Below, piece after piece: positions 16,900 to 27,655 of a DNA stretch of 64,000 nucleotides. Numbering within the stretch: position 1 is the first letter of the stretch; each line of letters starts with the position of its first letter. The position numbers and the translations under genes are program-made. The notes under the pieces were generated by a model that saw only the letters and a list, made by a program, of their open reading frames with translations, was not told the DNA's origin and did no database searches. Source of the DNA: Symbiodinium natans (taxonomy: Eukaryota; Sar; Dinophyceae; Suessiales; Symbiodiniaceae); assembly GCA_905221605.1 (NCBI GenBank), contig CAJNDS010000496.1:55001-119000 (forward strand), given 5' to 3'.

Positions 16900-17670
16900 G
16901 TATCCTGTAAAGGCCACGGCCCCCCCCTGAATTGACTTCGGAAGGAAGAAAGGCCCGGCCAGCCCCTAAACGGGGGGGTATCGTTTCAAGGCCCGGGCAG
17001 CCCCCCCGAAATTGACCCCCCGGCAATTGAATTCGGATAGGGGGGGGGGTATCCTTGTTAAAGGCCCCAAATTCACTTCGGATAGGGGGGGGGATCCGTA
17101 CGCCTCCGCCAAGCATTGACCCCTCCGGCAATTGAATTCGGATAGGGGGGGTATCCTGGTCAAAGGCCCGGGCAGCCCCAAATTGAATTCGGATAGGGGG
17201 GGGGGTATGGGCCCCCGCAATTGAATTCGGATAGGGGGGGGGTATCCTGGTTAAAGGCCTGCCCCCAAATTCACTTCGGATAGGGGGGGGGTATCCGTTT
17301 TAAAGGCCCAGGGCCCCCCCGCAGTTGAATTCGGATAGGGGGGGGTATCCTGGTTAAAGGCCCGGGCAGCCCCCAAAAGGCCCGAAACCCCCCGCAATTG
17401 AATTCGGATAGGGGGGGGGTATCCTGGTTAAAGGCCCGGGCAGCCCCCCAAATTCACTTCGGCTAGGGGGGGGGTTTTCAAGGCCTGGGCCCCCGCAATT
17501 GAATTCGGATAGGGGGGGGGTATCCTGGAAAGGCCCGGGCAGCCCCCAAATTCACTTCGGATAGGGGGGGGGGGGGGGGGTATCCGTTTTAAAGGCCCGG
17601 ACCCCCCCGAAATTGAATTCGGATAGGGGGGGGGGGTATCCGTTTTAAAGGGCGCGCCTCCGCCCAGCAA
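16900..17670 (+). repeat. G-rich minisatellite with alternating EcoRI-like and TTCACTTCGG units
   Basis: At least a dozen copies of a composite unit: AATTGAATTCGGATAGG plus a G run, then TATCCTGGTTAAAGGCCCGG, alternating with AAATTCACTTCGGATAGG plus a G run and TATCCGTTTTAAAGGCC. G-run length varies (about 6-18). The long proline/isoleucine frames on the minus strand are products of the repeat and are not genes. Confidence 0.9.
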
Positions 17671-18942: not shown

Positions 18943-18947
18943 CCCTA
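18943..18947. other. Target-site duplication CCCTA (left)
   Basis: CCCTA immediately before the LTR at 18948; the same five bases follow the other LTR at 27651-27655. The target was a CCCTAAA telomere-type repeat. A 5-bp duplication fits LTR-element integration, although CCCTA is common in this repeat. Confidence 0.75.
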
Positions 18948-19234
18948 TACGGGGGGACAACCAAGGAAGGAAATCAACTCCCCTAATCGCCCTGAACTTA
19001 TATTCCCCAGATCGAACCAAGAAACAAACAAGAACACGGATAAGAGCAACCCAGGGGGGAAGGAAAGGGGGAAGGAATCCACACCCTTACCTAACCCTAA
19101 GAACCCAGGCACTACTTTTTGAACTTGTGGCTTTCTGTTCAAGCTCATCTTGAGCCAAACATGATTTCCGGGTTCATTAACCCTTCCAACTCTCAACACT
19201 AACTCTTTTCTACAATACCAGTTGCAGCTCCGCA
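18948..19234 (-). repeat. 3' LTR
   Basis: 287 bp; in the coding sense it starts TGCGGAGCTG and ends CCCCCCGTA, a TG...TA border in place of the usual TG...CA. Identical to the 5' LTR except for one base at 19145. Confidence 0.9.
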
Positions 19235-19242
19235 CTCCCCCT
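19235..19242 (-). promoter_or_regulatory. Polypurine tract
   Basis: In the coding sense AGGGGGAG directly abuts the TG of the 3' LTR, the position where plus-strand DNA synthesis is primed in LTR elements. Confidence 0.75.
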
Positions 19243-19605
19243 GTCCTAGGATTTCCTAGGACACCTTGGAGGTGCAGATGTTTTGGCCAAAAACTGCCAT
19301 TAAAGCAGCAGCCAGCTGCTTGAAAATGCAAAATATGGTTTAACGTCATCCAGGACGGAATTATAGCACATTGGCTAACCCACTAACCACAGAGAATCTC
19401 TTTTCACCATGATCCTCTCATCACTGAAGACTCCTTGGCCTTCTTCACCACAAACCGTGGTCTTCGCTACGCGAAAAGCTACTGACTTCCACTATCAGGG
19501 ATTTCCATACCCTTAATAGTAACCACCACATTGTCAGCACATTGGCTGTTCCAGCGCACCTGTCTCCAGAAAGAGAAAAACCATCCCTTCATCCATACCA
19601 TCCAA

Positions 19606-19977
19606 TCACTTCTTTTTCCGATTGTTGGCAATCTTGAGGTGAAGTTGCAGCAGAATATACTCCAGGTCCGAAACTGTAAGCACAGGATCCTGTACGCACC
19701 TTTGAATTGAGGATACCAATCCTTCTCTCTTTGCGTCCTCAATCGCTTGGCACGATTGACCCAGCTCTGCATTCACAGCGGTGGACACAGGTACATCCGC
19801 ATCAGATGGACGATCCTTTTCCTCAGGACCCTGCACCATTACCACCTCTTCTTTTTTTGGGACTCTGACTTTTCTCCCTCTTCTTTGTCTTTCCACCGAC
19901 ATTTGACGTCGTGCGCGTCTTCGAGGATTTTTCCACTGCAGAAGCCACCACATTGGATGTTGATCCACCCTTCTCAA
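19606..19977 (-). CDS. Possible fourth ORF or C-terminal extension
   Basis: A 123-codon frame overlapping the end of the 1301-aa ORF by 155 nt, in the +1 direction. The part beyond the overlap reads VLTVSDLEYILLQLHLKIAN and ends in Arg/Lys. Downstream of ORF3 the coding content is uncertain; it could be 3' untranslated sequence. Confidence 0.35.
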   Translation of the reverse strand: MRRVDQHPMWWLLQWKNPRRRARRQMSVERQRRGRKVRVPKKEEVVMVQGPEEKDRPSDADVPVSTAVNAELGQSCQAIEDAKREGLVSSIQRCVQDPVLTVSDLEYILLQLHLKIANNRKKK

Positions 19978-22900
19978 TGATCGTCGGCATCTTCTTCGGC
20001 TTTGGAACCATGAGAGTGTAAGGATCTTCGATAGCTGCAGCTTTCCTCTTCTTTTTTACCTTTTTCTTCTCTTCTTCAACGGCAACCTCCGTCTCCGAAG
20101 TCTCAACCACTTCTTTTTCGGCAGGAATATCCTTGCTGGACTCCCTTTCTAGGGACCTCTTTTTGCCTCTTTTGGAATCCTTTTCTTCTCCCAAATTGGC
20201 TCGCTCATACCATATCCTCAGGTCATTGACCCATTCTTCCACCTCCGCGAGCGAAACCTCATACGACTTCACTACTTCGAGAAGTTCCAGCACGGTCAAC
20301 ATTTCAGTGGTCCACGAAACCCATTCTTGATCCATTTGGTCAGCATCTCCAGTGAACTTCAGGAGTTTGAACAATGGGTCCGCCTCTGCTCGAGCCAAAT
20401 CTGGCTTGCCACCGGACAGAAATGAAATCGCCTCCATCAACAGTTCCGTCATTTTGGTATCTTCGTCATAAACCATAAAATCCTCCTCATCATCATCGAA
20501 CTGTTCAGGAGAGATCTCCTTTTCTCCACCATTTGCACCAGACTTTCTCCTTGGACCATCCCTTGGGGGCGTCCTTGGAGACCTTGGCCTCTGTTCTTCC
20601 AGCGGAACACCATGCTCGAAGACACACCTGTCACCATAACGACACTTCCCAGACCGAGCAAACTGGACGCACCTCACACCAGTTGCATCATGCGAGAACC
20701 CACAATCCTTTCCAGCGAAACATTCTCTCCCTGCCACATAGTATTTGCACCAATACGAAGGTAGCATCACATCATCTTCGGAATGGATGAATTTGCAGTC
20801 TTCACCAAATTTGCAGCGATCTTTTCCCTTGCTGAACCAATAGCAGAAGCCTTTCTTCCTCTTCTCCAAGCGCTCTGCCTCGTACCGGTCCATAGGGCGA
20901 TTGTGCTCTACATGAACATTGCCATGTACCTGGGGACTGCTCCCTTCACCCGACGTGCTATCAGTATTTGGTGCTTGGAGTACAGCTGGAAAACCTGGCC
21001 TTGGTCCTACCACCTTCATGATTGGTTTTCCGCCAACTCCTGAGCCATGCTGAGACGATCCAAAAACATTGAACATCTTCGTGAAGGCCTTTCTAGTGCC
21101 AATCTTCTGCACCCTTTTGATTGGACGTTTCATTGCTCCAACCTTGCATCCAGATGCGTTCAAACGACACAACCTCCTATACCCAGCTCTATATCCCTTC
21201 TTCCAAAGAGCCATAAGAATTTTAGAGGCAGTAACATTCTCCACCTCTACCTTTTCCAATGGTCCCTCACTTCCCGGAACAAACCCATCCATATCTGAAG
21301 ACCTTTCCATCTTTTTTGACACCACTTCGTCGAGGTAGTCTTCCGAGATCCAGGGTAAGTTCCCCTTAGAGGAAGGATTGTCATCATTGTTTGGTCCTTC
21401 ACCAGGATACCCTTTTGTGCTGTCAAAGATCTTACCAGTAGTGCGGTCCTGCATAGAGAAATTCGAAGCCACGCGGGAGTACACTGACCACAAGAAAATC
21501 CTTGTGTCCGCCAGTCTTGATGACCCACTGGATGTCTCCTCTTCCGGAGAAACTTCTGGCGCTTTGCCACCCCCTCCAGTGTCACCACTTGTCTCACCTC
21601 CAGCATCTTCAATGGGAATAAGGGATTCATTGTTCCCTTGATCAAGCACCGCATCCTCTGGTCCAAGAACTCCCAGCACCGCTGTCGAAGGATCCACCTC
21701 TTCATCAGCATCGTCGTCCATCCTTTTCCAGAGAGCCTCCAATTGGTCCGCACAAGTCGCCGCTTGAAGGAACTCCATCAACCGGGCCCTCCCGCGCTGC
21801 CAGAGAAATTCCGAAACCATCACCGACCCCTGGGCTCCAAGATTCAGGAACGGGTGAACCATTTTGGCTACCCTCGCCATAAGTTCAATGTGAACTTCCA
21901 TGCCTGGACTGCGACTCCAATCATAGGCAATTGCCTCCATAGCAGTTCCAAACTTGTCAGTATTTTTGAATTCCCCCTCCAGACCAGGAGACAACAAGGT
22001 ACCCATCACCGAAAGAGGGTAATTTCCCACCGCCGGCAAGCACGGGTTGTCATGGAACGAATGATGCAGGTCACTATAATGTCCTTGATCTCTCCTTTGA
22101 AAAAGGAGTGCTCCAGTCCCTAGCTGGGCATTCATTTCATCCACTTGAACCATTTCAGCACATATCCTCTGTGCCATGTACGCCATTGCTGGCCAGACGG
22201 AACGATCGGTAAGACCGCGACGCATAACCCAATCAGTTGTTGGCGACTGAATCAGCGTCCTTGGATCATACACCAGAACTACCATCGCACCGTCACCCAT
22301 TGACTGATCAGCATCGTCCTCCAGTGCCAGGTTCTCATCCTGTTCGCTTGCACCCTCGGATGACATGCTAATAACCAAATTTCGATCCATCTTATTGGAC
22401 CCTTTTTGGCAGTCGCTTTGCCCCACAGGCAACTTGCCAACAGCAACCTTCCAACAAATCCGAGTCAGAAGGCCTTTAACCAGCAATTGCTGAAGGTCAT
22501 TCCTCACCGGACAAACATCCAATATCTTCGCACCATCACCACGGAGTTCATTGCTCCCACCTTCTCCTTCTTTTTGGTCAGTCTCCTCGCCAGAAATCTG
22601 TACTGCTCCTTCCGGCGCCGTCTCCTGTCCAGCCACTTCTTGCCCAGGAAGAACTTGAGCGCTTTCAGAGACATTCACCTGTCCAGCAACACCTTGCCCA
22701 GGTAAAACCTCATCCGTGGAGCCCACCGCCAGCGAACCAACCATAACTGAACCATCCCTTGCTCTTTTTTGAGACCGTTCAGCTCGACGAGAAGGTTGTG
22801 GTAGCGAAAAAACTTGTGAAGTCACTTCTTGGCGGGTCTCCCCCCGCGACGCTTTGTCGCGCCCTTCGCCAAGGTGAACCGATTTTTTCGGCCCGTCATT

Positions 22901-23728
22901 GGAGCCTGAAGAACCACTTTGCGGAACATTGCCACGATTCGCAGTTCTCTGTGAATCCCTTTCTTGCAAAAAGATTTCCTTCAGGCGTTGCGCGGCATTG
23001 GTCTCCTCTTCGCTTGAATCGCTTGAGGAAGCGGCATACGAGACCAAGGCCTCCGCCTGTTCATCATCATCCACCACATCTGCCCACGCTCTGCTGAACC
23101 GATACGACAACCCACCACGAGGCTTCAGTTCCAGTGGCTTCGGCTTTTCCACCACTTCCGCCGGTTGCACTCGTCGTTGTGACCGAGAGCGTGGCACCTG
23201 TCGCACCTGTTTTTTGTCCAGCAAGGGCCTTCCCCTTCTCACAGGGTTTGATCTTGACCGATATTTTTTTGTTGGTGGATTCACCGGCGGCATTCCAACT
23301 CCCACCAACCGCAGCTTCTGTACGCACAACGGAGACCTCTGCGCAAGCGTCCAACCATCACGGTACCTGACCTTATCAAAAAGCTCCCGATAGGAGCCTC
23401 TCGGCATGGTTTTTGCACCGGAGTCTTCAGCTTCACGCACCTGAGTGAGGGTTCGCACCGCCGCTCTTCCAGTTCCTTTGTTCCCAGAAGATTGTTGTAC
23501 CCGTACAGATGCATCAGAAGGAACTGCTTTTTCCGGTCCTCCCGGGCGATATCGGACATCACCAACCAATTGCAGAATTTTGCATGCGGTCACTTTGTTG
23601 ATCCCTTTGTCAACCAAATCTTCCACAAAGATGAACTCTTGCAAGTCCGACACATTGGTCACACCAAGCGTAATCATCACCTCACTTACATGAGGAGTAT
23701 ACACCCACAGGTGTTCGTTGCGAGCCAT
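19823..23728 (-). CDS. ORF3: 1301-aa protein with three CCCH zinc fingers
   Basis: Residues 1-60 look like a small helical domain (SEVMITLGVTNVSDLQEF). An AT-hook-like RRGRP lies at 164-168. A ~200-residue helical region (around SRSPGMEVHIELMARVAKMV) could be structural. Three CCCH fingers in tandem at about 957-1040: CYWFSKGKDRCKFGEDCKF then IH; CKYYVAGRECFAGKDCGF then SH; CVQFARSGKCRYGDRCVF then EH. CCCH fingers usually bind single-stranded RNA. The C-terminus is Lys-rich (KKKVKKKRKAA near 1226) and could be a nuclear signal. Starts 43 nt inside ORF2, -1 frame. No polymerase motif. Confidence 0.8.
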   Translation of the reverse strand: MARNEHLWVYTPHVSEVMITLGVTNVSDLQEFIFVEDLVDKGINKVTACKILQLVGDVRYRPGGPEKAVPSDASVRVQQSSGNKGTGRAAVRTLTQVREAEDSGAKTMPRGSYRELFDKVRYRDGWTLAQRSPLCVQKLRLVGVGMPPVNPPTKKYRSRSNPVRRGRPLLDKKQVRQVPRSRSQRRVQPAEVVEKPKPLELKPRGGLSYRFSRAWADVVDDDEQAEALVSYAASSSDSSEEETNAAQRLKEIFLQERDSQRTANRGNVPQSGSSGSNDGPKKSVHLGEGRDKASRGETRQEVTSQVFSLPQPSRRAERSQKRARDGSVMVGSLAVGSTDEVLPGQGVAGQVNVSESAQVLPGQEVAGQETAPEGAVQISGEETDQKEGEGGSNELRGDGAKILDVCPVRNDLQQLLVKGLLTRICWKVAVGKLPVGQSDCQKGSNKMDRNLVISMSSEGASEQDENLALEDDADQSMGDGAMVVLVYDPRTLIQSPTTDWVMRRGLTDRSVWPAMAYMAQRICAEMVQVDEMNAQLGTGALLFQRRDQGHYSDLHHSFHDNPCLPAVGNYPLSVMGTLLSPGLEGEFKNTDKFGTAMEAIAYDWSRSPGMEVHIELMARVAKMVHPFLNLGAQGSVMVSEFLWQRGRARLMEFLQAATCADQLEALWKRMDDDADEEVDPSTAVLGVLGPEDAVLDQGNNESLIPIEDAGGETSGDTGGGGKAPEVSPEEETSSGSSRLADTRIFLWSVYSRVASNFSMQDRTTGKIFDSTKGYPGEGPNNDDNPSSKGNLPWISEDYLDEVVSKKMERSSDMDGFVPGSEGPLEKVEVENVTASKILMALWKKGYRAGYRRLCRLNASGCKVGAMKRPIKRVQKIGTRKAFTKMFNVFGSSQHGSGVGGKPIMKVVGPRPGFPAVLQAPNTDSTSGEGSSPQVHGNVHVEHNRPMDRYEAERLEKRKKGFCYWFSKGKDRCKFGEDCKFIHSEDDVMLPSYWCKYYVAGRECFAGKDCGFSHDATGVRCVQFARSGKCRYGDRCVFEHGVPLEEQRPRSPRTPPRDGPRRKSGANGGEKEISPEQFDDDEEDFMVYDEDTKMTELLMEAISFLSGGKPDLARAEADPLFKLLKFTGDADQMDQEWVSWTTEMLTVLELLEVVKSYEVSLAEVEEWVNDLRIWYERANLGEEKDSKRGKKRSLERESSKDIPAEKEVVETSETEVAVEEEKKKVKKKRKAAAIEDPYTLMVPKPKKMPTIIEKGGSTSNVVASAVEKSSKTRTTSNVGGKTKKREKSQSPKKRRGGNGAGS

Positions 23729-26406
23729 CCAATTTTCAATTGGCTCCTCCGGATTTTGCGCCGAGTACCAGTGGATTCAGCCACCGAATTCTTTTGTTCA
23801 TCAGCTTCTGCTTCATCCAGAATACCTTTTTCACCTTCTTTTTGTGACACATTGGTCATCTGCAGCGCTTTTGGTGCCGAGGATGAGGAAGATTCAGCTC
23901 CCCCACTTGCAGGTGGCTGAAAAGTGCTTCTTTCCGTAATCTCCCATCCTCTCTCTTTTTCAAACCGGACCTGATTGGCCACCTGTACCAAGTGTTTCAG
24001 GAGCGTCAGCCGCTCCTCTGACATCTCGTCGTGGGAGTACTTGCAGAAATTTGACCCCTTCCGGCAACGTCCTCTGAGGTAATAATCGAAACAGCAATGG
24101 TGGAACCCTGCGTCCCTTAGTGCCTTCCTGGAAGCATTGTCCCAAGATTTGCCGGGCTCCCAAGTCCCTTCCAATGCTATGTCATCGTTGTGAAGATACC
24201 TGCATGTAGTCCCATATTTACAACCACCCTGATTGTAATACAGACACAGACGACCTTTTGGCTCACCCGACGTAGGTTCACCCTTTGATGCACCTTTGCC
24301 AAAATTGCACTTGGCCCGGAAGGCCAAATCCTCCCGCTCCTGCTGTGCCTCATCCACTGTACCTTCCTCTGTGGGAGGGTCACCGATGTTCCCATCCTCA
24401 TCATCAGCTTCTTGGCTATTCTTTGGATCAGTTGACCCTCCTCCTGGCCAACCCTCACCATAACGACGATGCTCATAGGAACACTCATCACCATTGCGAC
24501 ACCTTCCCCGATTGAAGAACTTGCACAGCTTGCTGTATCCAGGTGACAACACAGTCTTTGGAGTCATGTGAGCCTTTTTGTACTGGTCAGGGTCCATGTA
24601 GGCTTCCATTGGCTTGTTCTCCCTTTTGCTCATGGATTGCACGGCACCATCAAGCTCCTGCAAAAATAGCTTGGTGTCCAACCGAAGCGCGTTCCAAAAC
24701 TCATCTTCCCCTTGATTCAGCACCGTTGCCACCGCCTCACCCACAACTGGTCGAGTAAATCTCCTTTTTCTGCATGCCAGTTCGAAAAGCGCGTTGTGGT
24801 ACTGTTTTCGGGAAAAAGTGGTTAACTTCCCCAAGCCTGTGCTTTCTGTACCAGCAGGCTTCCAACCATCATTTTGCAAGACGCCATACGCGCGCCGAGC
24901 TTCCGCATTGAGGAATGCATGATCTGCAACACACTCCTGTAAATCTTCCATCGGGCGACCCAACAGCATCCCAGTGATTTTGCCAACATAGGCCTCATCT
25001 TCGTTTCCATTCTCCAGAAGAGCTTTGTAGATCTTTTCTCCATAAAGTTGCCTTTCCTCTCGTTCTTCTGAGGATAACTCCTGTACCACAAGCCCTTCAT
25101 CGGATTGCTCTTCCTCCTGTTTCCAGTCCCATTGACCGTTGGAATCTTGGTACCATTGACCAGCATACCATGAATCCGTCCACCACGTACTCCAGCCGCT
25201 GGGTTTCCATTTCCGCAGCGTCGAGGAAGAGTCCTCCACGTCCTCTTCCAAAACCAGAAAGGTGTCCAAGATTATGGTACCATCATCTTCCACTCGTTTC
25301 ACTGTTCCATTGACAGTATCACCAAAGCTGAACTGACACGTATTGTTCCCTTCTGCAGGAATCAATACATTCAAATCACCAAGGTTCAAAAAGGCTCCAT
25401 ACCCATTGATGCAGCGCACTAGACCCATAATCTCATCTCCCTCTTGATAGCAATGGTTCCCAGGTGATTCCAAGGCTCCCGCTCGGGGCACTTTCTTTAC
25501 ATGCTCTTCAGAAACCACCTCTGTATCATCGGCTCCTGGCGCATCATTTGCCTTCACCTTTGGGTCACACTGCTCGTCCTGCTCCACGAGTCCCACAGGC
25601 TCATCTTTTTTGTGCTCCTGGATTTCAGGACCTCCCTTTTTCTCCGCCAAAGGCTTTGCCTCATCTGCTGTAGTTCGCTCGGTGTCGACTTCCGGCAAAC
25701 TTCCAGACGGCAACACTTCTCCCTTCATGGGAGTGGACCCATCATTGGAGTCCTTTGTCACACCTTCTGCAGCAGGCAAATTTTCTTCCACTGCAGGGCG
25801 ATTGAGTTGATCATCCACGGCAGGCACACTTTCTTCCACCGCAGGCTCCTTTGGTTCCATGGTTTCCAAAGGAGAATTTCCACCATCGTTGACCACAGCT
25901 GCCTCATCGGCTCCGGTGTAGCCCTTGCTATTCCGTTCCTCGCGGCTAACTTCAGGTTGCACCAGTGCGTCCACCTGTGAACCTCCATCATCAGCTGCTG
26001 CGGAGACCTGCGCCCCATTGTTGCAGTCACCCGTGGAACGTAACACCATATGCACCTCAACCCGTGCTTCCTTCGCACTCCAGGTAATATCTGGCGCATC
26101 GACCCGCGCATCATTGGCGCTCCAGGCCTCATCTTTCAGATCTTCCGTGTCTCCAGCTATTCCAGAAGCTTCTTTTTCCCCTTGAATGGCAGGAATCTTG
26201 GCACCAAACGAAGAGACCTCCTCAGTCGCAACACACGACCTTTTCCCTCCGTCTTCCGAATCTCCAGGACCACCTTCCTGAACGACAGGTACCACATCCA
26301 CCACTCGCTCTTCTGCAGCCGACACAGTTCCGATCTCCACATTGGGAATTTTTTCTTCTGGACCTACCGATTCCACCGCTGCCACACCCTCAGAAAGCGC
26401 TCCCAT
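23686..26406 (-). CDS. ORF2: 906-aa protein with S1-like, MLLE/PABC-like and CCCH domains
   Basis: Residues 1-310 are acidic low-complexity sequence. An S1-like OB fold at about 322-388 contains EGDEIMGLVRCINGYGAFLN and FGDTVNGTVKRVEDDGTIIL. At about 455-512 the frame reads LYGEKIYKALL, then YVGKITGMLLGRPMEDLQEC: KITGMLL is the signature of the poly(A)-binding-protein C-terminal domain (MLLE), which binds PAM2 peptides. Three CCCH fingers follow at 628-646, 721-739 and about 771-792 (CKFFNRGRCRNGDECSYEH is the first). This is an unusual domain set for an LTR element and suggests binding of mRNA or mRNP factors. Starts 43 nt before ORF1's stop, -1 frame. Confidence 0.8.
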   Translation of the reverse strand: MGALSEGVAAVESVGPEEKIPNVEIGTVSAAEERVVDVVPVVQEGGPGDSEDGGKRSCVATEEVSSFGAKIPAIQGEKEASGIAGDTEDLKDEAWSANDARVDAPDITWSAKEARVEVHMVLRSTGDCNNGAQVSAAADDGGSQVDALVQPEVSREERNSKGYTGADEAAVVNDGGNSPLETMEPKEPAVEESVPAVDDQLNRPAVEENLPAAEGVTKDSNDGSTPMKGEVLPSGSLPEVDTERTTADEAKPLAEKKGGPEIQEHKKDEPVGLVEQDEQCDPKVKANDAPGADDTEVVSEEHVKKVPRAGALESPGNHCYQEGDEIMGLVRCINGYGAFLNLGDLNVLIPAEGNNTCQFSFGDTVNGTVKRVEDDGTIILDTFLVLEEDVEDSSSTLRKWKPSGWSTWWTDSWYAGQWYQDSNGQWDWKQEEEQSDEGLVVQELSSEEREERQLYGEKIYKALLENGNEDEAYVGKITGMLLGRPMEDLQECVADHAFLNAEARRAYGVLQNDGWKPAGTESTGLGKLTTFSRKQYHNALFELACRKRRFTRPVVGEAVATVLNQGEDEFWNALRLDTKLFLQELDGAVQSMSKRENKPMEAYMDPDQYKKAHMTPKTVLSPGYSKLCKFFNRGRCRNGDECSYEHRRYGEGWPGGGSTDPKNSQEADDEDGNIGDPPTEEGTVDEAQQEREDLAFRAKCNFGKGASKGEPTSGEPKGRLCLYYNQGGCKYGTTCRYLHNDDIALEGTWEPGKSWDNASRKALRDAGFHHCCFDYYLRGRCRKGSNFCKYSHDEMSEERLTLLKHLVQVANQVRFEKERGWEITERSTFQPPASGGAESSSSSAPKALQMTNVSQKEGEKGILDEAEADEQKNSVAESTGTRRKIRRSQLKIGWLATNTCGCILLM

Positions 26407-27296
26407 TCCTTCCCGATCCAGATGTTGAGTGCCCTCGTAGACTCAGTCTTCGGAGTAGAGGATGAAGAATCCAGCGCCGCCTCCATTTCCAGCTCATTGC
26501 CCGACGGAGACCCAACCACCTCGTCACTCTTCATCTTTTCACCTACCACCGGCAAAGTCCACTTGCTTTCCTGCGTATCCAGGCAGTAATAATATTGTCT
26601 CCCATCTTCATGGAGGTGCCATTCCCACGCTGTCCCATCGCACGCTTTGATCAGATGCTCATCTTTCCGAAAACCATCCCTTTCAGAGACCTGACGCATC
26701 TCGTCCTCTTCTTCTGACAACTGTCGCAACCTCTCAGCCTCCATCTGTAGGATCTCCTCCTCCCCCATGGCGTATTCAGCAGCAGGTGCAGCTTCAAAGC
26801 TGTCCGCACCCTTCTGTTCGTGACCGCTTCCACCACCTTGGGAACTCGAAGATAGATCCCTTTTGATCTTGTTCAGAGGCCTCCTGGCCGCTTGCAGCAC
26901 TTCTCCAATCAGATCGGTCTGAGACTCTTGGTCTACCACTCGACCCGAAGTCGAAGTCGACGGCTGATACCCGTGTTTGTGCAACACTCGTAAAACAGTC
27001 ACCTCCATTTCACGATCTATACCACCAGTCGCGTCCCAGTTCCTTTTCTCACCAGGCTTTGGCGATACAGAGACAGCACGTCCTTCAGCTTCAGTATTGC
27101 TAACCATATCCACATTGGGATTCATACCCACATTGGGGCTTTCTGCAACCAAGGCTTCTTCCAGATGTTCTTCAGCGCCGGGAATCACCTCTTCCAACAC
27201 CGATCTTTCACCCAGAGACTCAGCTGCACCATTTCCAGCTCCACCATTTTGTCCACCATCCGAGGCAGGTTGGAGCCATCGCTTCGGAGAAGGCAT
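26364..27296 (-). CDS. ORF1: 310-aa protein with a WW-like domain
   Basis: Starts 68 nt inside the 5' LTR border, the first ATG of the internal region. Acidic and Ser-rich, with a coiled-coil-prone stretch (EEEILQMEAERLRQLSEEED) around 178-205. Residues 222-249 read TAWEWHLHEDGRQYYYCLDT then QESKWTLP, matching a WW domain (two Trp 22 residues apart, central aromatic triplet, final Pro), which binds proline-rich peptides. Ends 43 nt past the ORF2 start. No canonical slippery heptamer was found in the overlap, so reinitiation is an alternative to frameshifting. Confidence 0.75.
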   Translation of the reverse strand: MPSPKRWLQPASDGGQNGGAGNGAAESLGERSVLEEVIPGAEEHLEEALVAESPNVGMNPNVDMVSNTEAEGRAVSVSPKPGEKRNWDATGGIDREMEVTVLRVLHKHGYQPSTSTSGRVVDQESQTDLIGEVLQAARRPLNKIKRDLSSSSQGGGSGHEQKGADSFEAAPAAEYAMGEEEILQMEAERLRQLSEEEDEMRQVSERDGFRKDEHLIKACDGTAWEWHLHEDGRQYYYCLDTQESKWTLPVVGEKMKSDEVVGSPSGNELEMEAALDSSSSTPKTESTRALNIWIGKEWERFLRVWQRWNR

Positions 27297-27350
27297 TGCT
27301 TCTTGATCCCAAAGATCTTAAGACAACACTCAACCGCAGGGAACCTAATT

Positions 27351-27363
27351 TGGGCTCATAACC
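27351..27363 (-). promoter_or_regulatory. Primer-binding site matching the initiator-tRNA anticodon arm
   Basis: The plus strand reads TGGGCTCATAACC immediately before the LTR at 27364; GGGCTCATAACC matches the anticodon arm (CAT anticodon) of eukaryotic initiator methionine tRNA as I know it from yeast. In the coding sense the site begins GGTTATGAGCCC right after the LTR. Drosophila copia and yeast Ty5 are known to prime from such half-tRNAs, so a Copia-type ancestry is likely. Confidence 0.7.
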
Positions 27364-27650
27364 TACGGGGGGACAACCAAGGAAGGAAATCAACTCCCCT
27401 AATCGCCCTGAACTTATATTCCCCAGATCGAACCAAGAAACAAACAAGAACACGGATAAGAGCAACCCAGGGGGGAAGGAAAGGGGGAAGGAATCCACAC
27501 CCTTACCTAACCCTAAGAACCCAGGCACTACTTTTTGAACTTGTGGCTTTCTGTTCAAGCCCATCTTGAGCCAAACATGATTTCCGGGTTCATTAACCCT
27601 TCCAACTCTCAACACTAACTCTTTTCTACAATACCAGTTGCAGCTCCGCA
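27364..27650 (-). repeat. 5' LTR
   Basis: 287 bp, same borders as the 3' LTR. It should hold the promoter and RNA start. In the coding sense TTTGGCTCAAG lies at 27565-27575. Confidence 0.9.
27565..27575 (-). promoter_or_regulatory. Spliced-leader-like motif in the LTR
   Basis: The coding-sense sequence CATGTTTGGCTCAAG matches the dinoflagellate spliced-leader 3' end (CATTTTGGCTCAAG) except for one G in the T run; the last 11 nt are identical. The same motif is in the other LTR at 19149-19159. It could be a relict leader captured by reverse transcription of a trans-spliced RNA. Confidence 0.5.
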
Positions 27651-27655
27651 CCCTA
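27651..27655. other. Target-site duplication CCCTA (right)
   Basis: Partner of 18943-18947; continues into CCCTAAACCCTAA of the interrupted host repeat. Confidence 0.75.

Follow-up and report, generated by a model that had tools for sequence, protein, structure and literature searches.

A telomere-repeat-associated LTR retrotransposon family of Symbiodinium natans with no recognizable pol and a giant RNA-binding-type ORF

A 64,000-nt stretch of the Symbiodinium natans genome (contig CAJNDS010000496.1, positions 55,001 to 119,000; hereafter the window, whose own positions are used throughout) contains a long terminal repeat (LTR) element at 18948-27650, with the minus strand as coding strand. 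This element belongs to a family of hundreds of copies that has moved recently, sits nearly always at a single phase of TTTAGGG/CCCTAAA arrays, shows no recognizable pol in the copies read and carries a giant open reading frame (ORF) under selection. We consider it likely that the family represents a trans-mobilized, telomere-repeat-specific, non-autonomous LTR retrotransposon that keeps a giant RNA-binding-type protein for its own RNA.

Copies, coding capacity and selection on the ORF

The 287-bp LTRs of the window copy start with TG, end with TA and differ from each other by one mismatch and no gap. A primer-binding site (PBS) follows the 5′ LTR, a polypurine tract (PPT) precedes the 3′ LTR and a target-site duplication (TSD) of CCCTA lies on both sides. 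The LTRs with their single mismatch, the target duplication, the purine tract and the primer site had been pointed out in an earlier reading of the letters (the sequence-only reading) and were found again. The TSD of the window copy is weak evidence when taken alone, because the telomere-type repeat around the element itself contains CCCTA as one of its phases. Among 17 complete copies (window copy included), the 5-bp flanks are identical on both sides in 16 and one base off in the 17th, and both the PBS and the purine-rich tract are invariant in 17/17.

We searched a genome of 759 Mb in 2,543 contigs. The best 40 of 1,332 candidates for the LTR were scored, two of them being the LTRs of the window itself, and 40/40 are 98-100% identical. 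The 20-nt PBS has 688 exact genome copies as compared to 0 for the reversed pattern. The genome search that the earlier reading had called for thus points to hundreds of copies, with near-identity in the LTR matches that were scored. Stretches of about 10 kb were taken at 20 of the 38 other LTR matches; 16 of these hold complete copies of 8.5-9.0 kb, and in four the copy is either interrupted or cut off by the end of the sequence taken. The complete copies form two subfamilies, about 98% and about 89% identical to the window copy. Of the 17 LTR pairs, 11 are free of mismatches and nine of these are also gapless; in the other eight, we counted 1-4 mismatches or a single gap, 1 or 12 bases long. 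With nine pairs out of 17 showing no difference at all, movement must be recent, in line with the recent LTR-style transposition proposed before.

All 16 other complete copies share the same pol-less interior, which leaves no room for pol, and in none of them was pol found between the LTRs. A loss of pol from the window copy alone is thereby ruled out. Neither the three window ORFs (E-value up to 1) nor the 2,617-aa ORF of another copy (E up to 10) matched a Pfam family of reverse transcriptase (RT), RNase H, integrase or protease, and thus RVT_2, which marks an autonomous Ty1/copia element, is missing from the ORF. As a positive control, three Copia polyproteins encoded elsewhere in the genome were run with E up to 0.01, and all gave RVT_2, with E-values of 2.7e-26 to 3.1e-34. 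The control found no integrase in these three polyproteins, so that a diverged integrase would escape such a search; the absence of integrase and protease is therefore less certain than that of RT, for which Pfam, hhalign and the interiors of 16/16 copies agree with the sequence-only reading.

The same reading had described three very long ORFs. These are in fact fragments of one giant ORF: the window copy lacks about 142 bp carried by 16/16 other complete copies and has one further frame break, and the ORF runs uninterrupted over 2,617-2,627 aa in 3/16 complete fetched copies. In a genome search with the protein, frames of 2,598-2,625 aa were seen in 10 of 50 scored copies, where masked bases may lengthen frames; a 3,367-aa frame at C1990 proved to be an artefact of such masking. 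This search was also meant for diverged relatives and gave, among the best 50 of 1,522 candidates, only copies that are 92-100% identical. Relatives of P0002, the middle ORF piece, were not confirmed in viral contigs.

Matches above the Pfam cut-offs are Torus (E 4e-13), a domain which contains a CCCH finger, several CCCH models with E-values from 8e-8 to 5e-7, and MLLE (E 3e-7); six CCCH motifs are present in the window ORFs. From the domain kit proposed earlier, MLLE and the six CCCH fingers thus stand, and WW (E 0.008) and S1 (E 0.09) fall below the cut-offs in the window ORFs. No gag model matched the 2,617-aa ORF up to E 10, a search that would miss a gag too diverged for Pfam. Profile searches and structure prediction had been suggested as checks. 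The profiles gave the domains and no RT, and the prediction for 24589-25539 (minus strand) had a mean predicted local distance difference test score (pLDDT) of 41 and gave no usable model.

Between the two subfamilies, nonsynonymous divergence (dN) is 0.086 and synonymous divergence (dS) 0.272, which gives a dN/dS of 0.32 over 2,616 codons. Differences fall on codon positions 1, 2 and 3 in numbers of 231, 228 and 439 (p 6e-22). Synonymous and nonsynonymous codon pairs number 315:427 in the ORF frame compared to 118:627 and 118:620 in the other forward frames. The reverse frames gave 138:604, 291:447 and 126:619, and the middle value is expected if the silent positions of that frame coincide with third positions. 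The synonymous excess in the ORF frame and the excess at third positions show that the giant protein has been under selection during the movement of the element.

The telomere-repeat target

For the flank count, one outer flank was read in each of 39 copies, namely the 20 fetched loci, the window copy and the 18 other LTR matches, the latter as 45-base pieces of which 35 bases are flank. The outer flank ends exactly in TAGGG or CCCTA in 36/39 copies and is one base off in 2/39; the flank of the remaining copy (L045) is unrelated. The flanking 14-mers are telomere-like (at most 3 mismatches) in 36/39 copies versus 6% of window positions (P 8e-41). A second sample was drawn with a genome-wide pattern for the outer LTR end, which is blind to G at position -5 and matched 184 places. 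Letters were obtained for 28 of these (the window copy among them), with 25 exact ends and three with one mismatch. Furthermore, all 17 complete copies have a TTTAGGG-type repeat next to one or both LTRs; on the second side of L024, the match is limited to five bases.

Because TAGGG and CCCTA are the same site on two strands, these counts correspond to a single insertion phase used in either orientation. Insertion at a fixed repeat phase, as expected of a telomere-repeat-specific element, is hence what the copies show: with few exceptions, insertions are phase-specific in TTTAGGG/CCCTAAA arrays. The window itself has 39 short TTTAGGG/CCCTAAA-type arrays in both orientations according to a simple scan, in which four permuted-unit controls gave 0. 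Since such repeats scatter through the window, the target arrays are interstitial.

Primer site, spliced-leader motif and a candidate helper

The 20-nt PBS is private to the family, as only 3 of its 688 genome copies stand in a context where the third-last LTR base is not G; its use as a marker of other families was accordingly dropped. Its 14-nt core (GGTTATGAGCCC) is found at 187 further genome places versus 2 for the control and is thus not confined to the family. Three of the further places were read and comprise two putative LTR families and one tRNA-like sequence. In copia-type half-tRNA priming, known from Drosophila copia, the PBS is complementary to the anticodon region of tRNA-Met. 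The PBS core of the element is complementary to TTGGGCTCATAACC, which is present in the tRNA-like sequence (L037, C15:41390-41600), where ARAGORN reports no gene. This sequence has a tRNA-Met-like 5′ half with the anticodon arm TTGGGCTCATAACCCAA and no canonical 3′ half. One pattern search of the genome for a tRNA gene matching the PBS gave 0 matches.

The first of the two putative families (L039, C63:59500-61900, and further copies) has 154-155-bp LTRs that end in TA and are followed by the same 14-nt PBS core. Its LTR starts lie 11.85-11.88 kb apart on 13 contigs, as obtained by subtraction of listed positions, and we refer to it as the 12-kb family. It is very young, with most listed LTRs identical. 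In several copies, telomere-type stretches are found at the LTR ends or at most 6 bases from them. L039, where TTTAGGG precedes the LTR, is the only copy with a directly read phase; elsewhere the phase is deduced from coordinates. PBS core and telomere-type target are thus common to this family and the element. A 3,702-aa frame is present in 9/21 matches (masked bases may lengthen frames). We regard the 12-kb family as the best candidate for a helper, one that may provide the enzymes. A 160-aa sample taken near the end of its protein has FGDD flanked by hydrophobic residues, to which we attach no weight as evidence.

The second family (L038, C1:2773300-2775600) is a third possible LTR family, in which the primer core GGTTATGAGCCCAA stands directly after a sequence ending in ACA. 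It has a 637-aa open frame with no relevant Pfam match.

The LTR further contains a spliced-leader-like 11-mer (TTTGGCTCAAG), present in 33/34 LTRs of the 17 complete copies. When the LTR is aligned with the dinoflagellate spliced leader, 14/15 columns match in the 3′ portion of the leader; shuffling of the LTR gave as high a score in 31 of 20,000 cases and shuffling of the leader in 8 of 20,000. The motif has the form of a leader truncated after nucleotide 7, and relict leaders truncated at this point are described in PMC3229502. Moreover, the same 11-mer is found upstream of the primer site in Copia loci L030, L031 and L033 and a 10-mer in L032, that is, in 4/4 readable Copia 5′ regions (L029 is masked there). 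The Copia motif, which corresponds to the 3′ half of the leader, precedes a primer site of the initiator tRNA-Met type by about 30-130 nt, counted by eye, and lies within both 164-bp LTRs of L032; in L031, no 3′ LTR was found in a further 3.5 kb. This arrangement suggests that the R region of the LTR might begin at a trans-splice site.

Mobilization, rival readings and known systems

The sequence-only reading had proposed that the element could move through host mRNA handling together with the enzymes of another element, and a family in which 16/16 other complete copies have no recognizable pol would indeed need such enzymes. The strict telomere-repeat target, the leader motif in the LTR and the 12-kb family are new relative to that reading. 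In the arrangement we favor, transcription would start from the 5′ LTR and the element RNA may be trans-spliced. The giant protein would be translated from this RNA and bind it through its CCCH and S1-like parts. MLLE domains bind PAM2-bearing proteins of messenger ribonucleoproteins (mRNPs); the MLLE of the giant protein could make such contacts and link the RNA to the poly(A)/mRNP machinery. The RNA-protein complex would then enter helper particles, where the helper RT would prime at the shared PBS, and the helper integrase would insert the DNA at the TAGGG/CCCTA phase. Alternatively, the giant protein might itself build the particle in a Gag-like manner. We infer an action in cis because a non-autonomous element should keep a protein under selection only where that protein favors the element's own RNA.

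Several observations weigh against this arrangement. The first 659 aa of the 12-kb family protein have no Pfam match up to E 1 and the 160-aa sample has none up to E 10. Comparison by eye placed no scored RVT_2 match (best 150 of 2,237 candidates) or integrase match (best 150 of 1,021 candidates) within copies of the 12-kb family. The LTRs of the 12-kb family and the element lack similarity over any length (the best local match has 18 columns and is reached in 6/500 shuffles), the spliced-leader 11-mer is missing from the 12-kb family, and its first 659 aa show no similarity to the element protein (best E 0.7). In the giant protein, WW and S1 score below the cut-offs, and in the intact 2,617-aa ORF S1 reaches E 0.21 and WW is unlisted (E up to 10), so that both matches are suggestive only. 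The dN/dS value stems from one subfamily pair, and dS varies from 0.07 to 0.94 per 150 codons along the ORF, a sign of past recombination. Finally, 1/39 copies (L045) lies outside telomere-type repeats, and in L013 and L024 the repeat is short or one-sided.

A minor possibility is a bipartite retrotransposon, in which the 12-kb family would provide copying and integration enzymes and the 8.8-kb family the giant mRNP-type RNA-binding protein. The two might then be mutually dependent, much like the segments of a virus.

It is unlikely that the giant ORF is a mere passenger, i.e., a captured host mRNA-processing gene carried without function. Host mRNA proteins typically have such a set of domains, and capture of a host DNA methyltransferase is documented for dinoflagellate retrotransposons (PMC5890265). 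However, purifying selection between the subfamilies and the many full-length ORFs argue that the protein is used, and no host homolog was identified among the best 50 of 1,522 protein-search candidates.

Hardly probable, too, is an autonomous family whose giant protein hides a diverged or novel polymerase or integrase. A protein of about 2,600 aa, much of it in long segments with no recognized fold, would offer space for such an enzyme, Pfam misses the integrase of known Copia polyproteins here, and the structure model is unusable. Against this stands the search for RT, which was negative up to E 10, whereas RVT_2 reached 2.7e-26 or better in each of the three Copia proteins used as control. 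hhalign of two element ORFs with two Copia polyproteins gave a best probability of 1.7%, a weak test with two sequences per side. In addition, a motif scan of one intact protein located Y/FxDD only within a CCCH finger and an acidic tract.

Non-autonomous elements often arise by deletion of pol, and the ORF could then be a gag or envelope remnant of a pol-bearing master. This is very improbable and largely refuted by the 16/16 other complete copies without pol and by an ORF that matches no gag model up to E 10 and is kept by selection. A locus with pol beside a family copy does exist: L020 was the sole match when three Copia polyproteins were compared by tBLASTn with the window and the fetched loci (Copia loci L029-L033 left out). 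Here, the family copy is joined to a Copia-like pol, and the 155-bp sequence at the joint is found again on that contig at a distance of 9.2 kb. This pair and a similar one delimit a Copia-like 9.3-kb element at C1745:137801-147139 and C2000:48090-57431, one of them nested in a family member. We therefore rejected the L020 pol as a part of the family; its most likely source is an unrelated element, present in two copies and equipped with LTRs of its own, that has inserted into the family copy.

That the telomere association reflects duplicated repeat-flanked blocks or assembly instead of targeting is extremely unlikely: telomere-like sequence is indeed abundant, making up 5.6% of the window, but both orientations share one 5-bp phase with matched TSDs, the non-repeat parts of the 35-base flanks vary among copies (at the 35-base scale only), and Copia L032 sits in a TTTG microsatellite instead.

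As a non-autonomous LTR element, the family is of a known kind. TR-GAG, LARD, BARE-2 and Morgane are non-autonomous LTR retrotransposons with gag only or with large internal regions. The element resembles them in its intact LTRs, PBS, PPT, high copy number, lack of pol and presumed dependence on a helper. It differs in its strict telomere-repeat target and in its coding content: instead of gag or no ORF, it has a single ORF of about 2,620 aa in which MLLE and CCCH domains (and, more weakly, WW-like and S1-like parts) are encoded. The Ty1/copia loci L030-L033 share the leader-like motif upstream of the PBS and a single long ORF; unlike the element, they carry RVT_2 and have TGGTAGCGGAGC as PBS, and L032, the only one of these copies in which both LTRs were read, has an LTR ending in CA and no telomere target.

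Insertion in telomere-type repeats is also known for SART1 and TRAS1 of Bombyx, which are non-LTR, target-primed and autonomous, in contrast to the LTRs and 5-bp TSD found here. Ty5 of yeast is, according to PMC4700185, an LTR element with telomere-linked integration, yet it is tethered to Sir4 chromatin and not to a DNA sequence and has its own GAG-POL. As described in PMC5890265, Symbiodinium retrotransposons bearing a DNA methyltransferase likewise combine a dinoflagellate retroelement with a captured host domain whose key residues are conserved; these are long interspersed nuclear elements and DIRS elements with their own RT, and the captured domain is not of the RNA-binding type. Strict sequence-specific insertion is well known from non-LTR elements; before the elements of PMC3706591 (2013), it had been seen only among these, as stated in the abstract of that paper. 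In titles and abstract openings of the open-licence literature searched, we found no LTR element that encodes MLLE/CCCH or inserts into telomere repeats at a fixed phase. Within that scope, nothing matched the element in its set of domains, in the length and conservation of its ORF or in its exact phase within the repeat.

If correct, targeting of telomere-type repeats by an LTR integrase with a preference for one phase would be a new system and might account in part for the way elements spread in a genome rich in interstitial TTTAGGG arrays. A pol-less element with a selected 2.6-kaa protein would allow one to test how a parasite's parasite secures its own RNA for the enzymes of another element, and the leader motif inside the LTR would tie retrotransposition in these algae to trans-splicing in a concrete way.

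Table 1. Features of the window copy, in window positions (5′ and 3′ LTR named in coding direction)
Feature	Position	Strand	Remark
TSD CCCTA, left copy	18943..18947	.	same phase as other copies
3′ LTR, 287 bp, TG..TA	18948..19234	-	
Spliced-leader-like motif TTTGGCTCAAG in 3′ LTR	19149..19159	-	
Purine-rich tract, ends GGACAGGGGGAG in coding direction, abuts 3′ LTR	19235..19256	-	17/17 complete copies identical
ORF piece P0001, third part of single giant ORF	19823..23776	-	
CCCH fingers 4-6	20612..20845	-	
Conserved ORF region, fold not recognized	21731..22327	-	
ORF piece P0002, middle part of single giant ORF	23686..26442	-	
CCCH fingers 1-3	24031..24525	-	
MLLE (PABC-type) domain	24877..25068	-	Pfam PF00658 E 3.3e-7
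S1-like stretch, below cut-off	25270..25446	-	Pfam PF00575 E 0.087
Site of missing ~142 bp	26429..26430	-	present in 16/16 other complete copies
ORF piece P0003, first part of single giant ORF	26364..27317	-	first Met 27294-27296
WW-like stretch, below cut-off and unlisted in the 2,617-aa ORF of another copy	26550..26630	-	Pfam PF00397 E 0.0079
PBS GGTTATGAGCCCAAATTAGG, 20 nt, abuts 5′ LTR	27344..27363	-	
5′ LTR, 287 bp	27364..27650	-	
Spliced-leader-like motif TTTGGCTCAAG in 5′ LTR	27565..27575	-	
TSD CCCTA, right copy	27651..27655	.	

Outside the element, the window contains a complex tandem array at 17015-17651, with units rich in GGGGGGGG and GAATTCGGAT and a period of 49-194.

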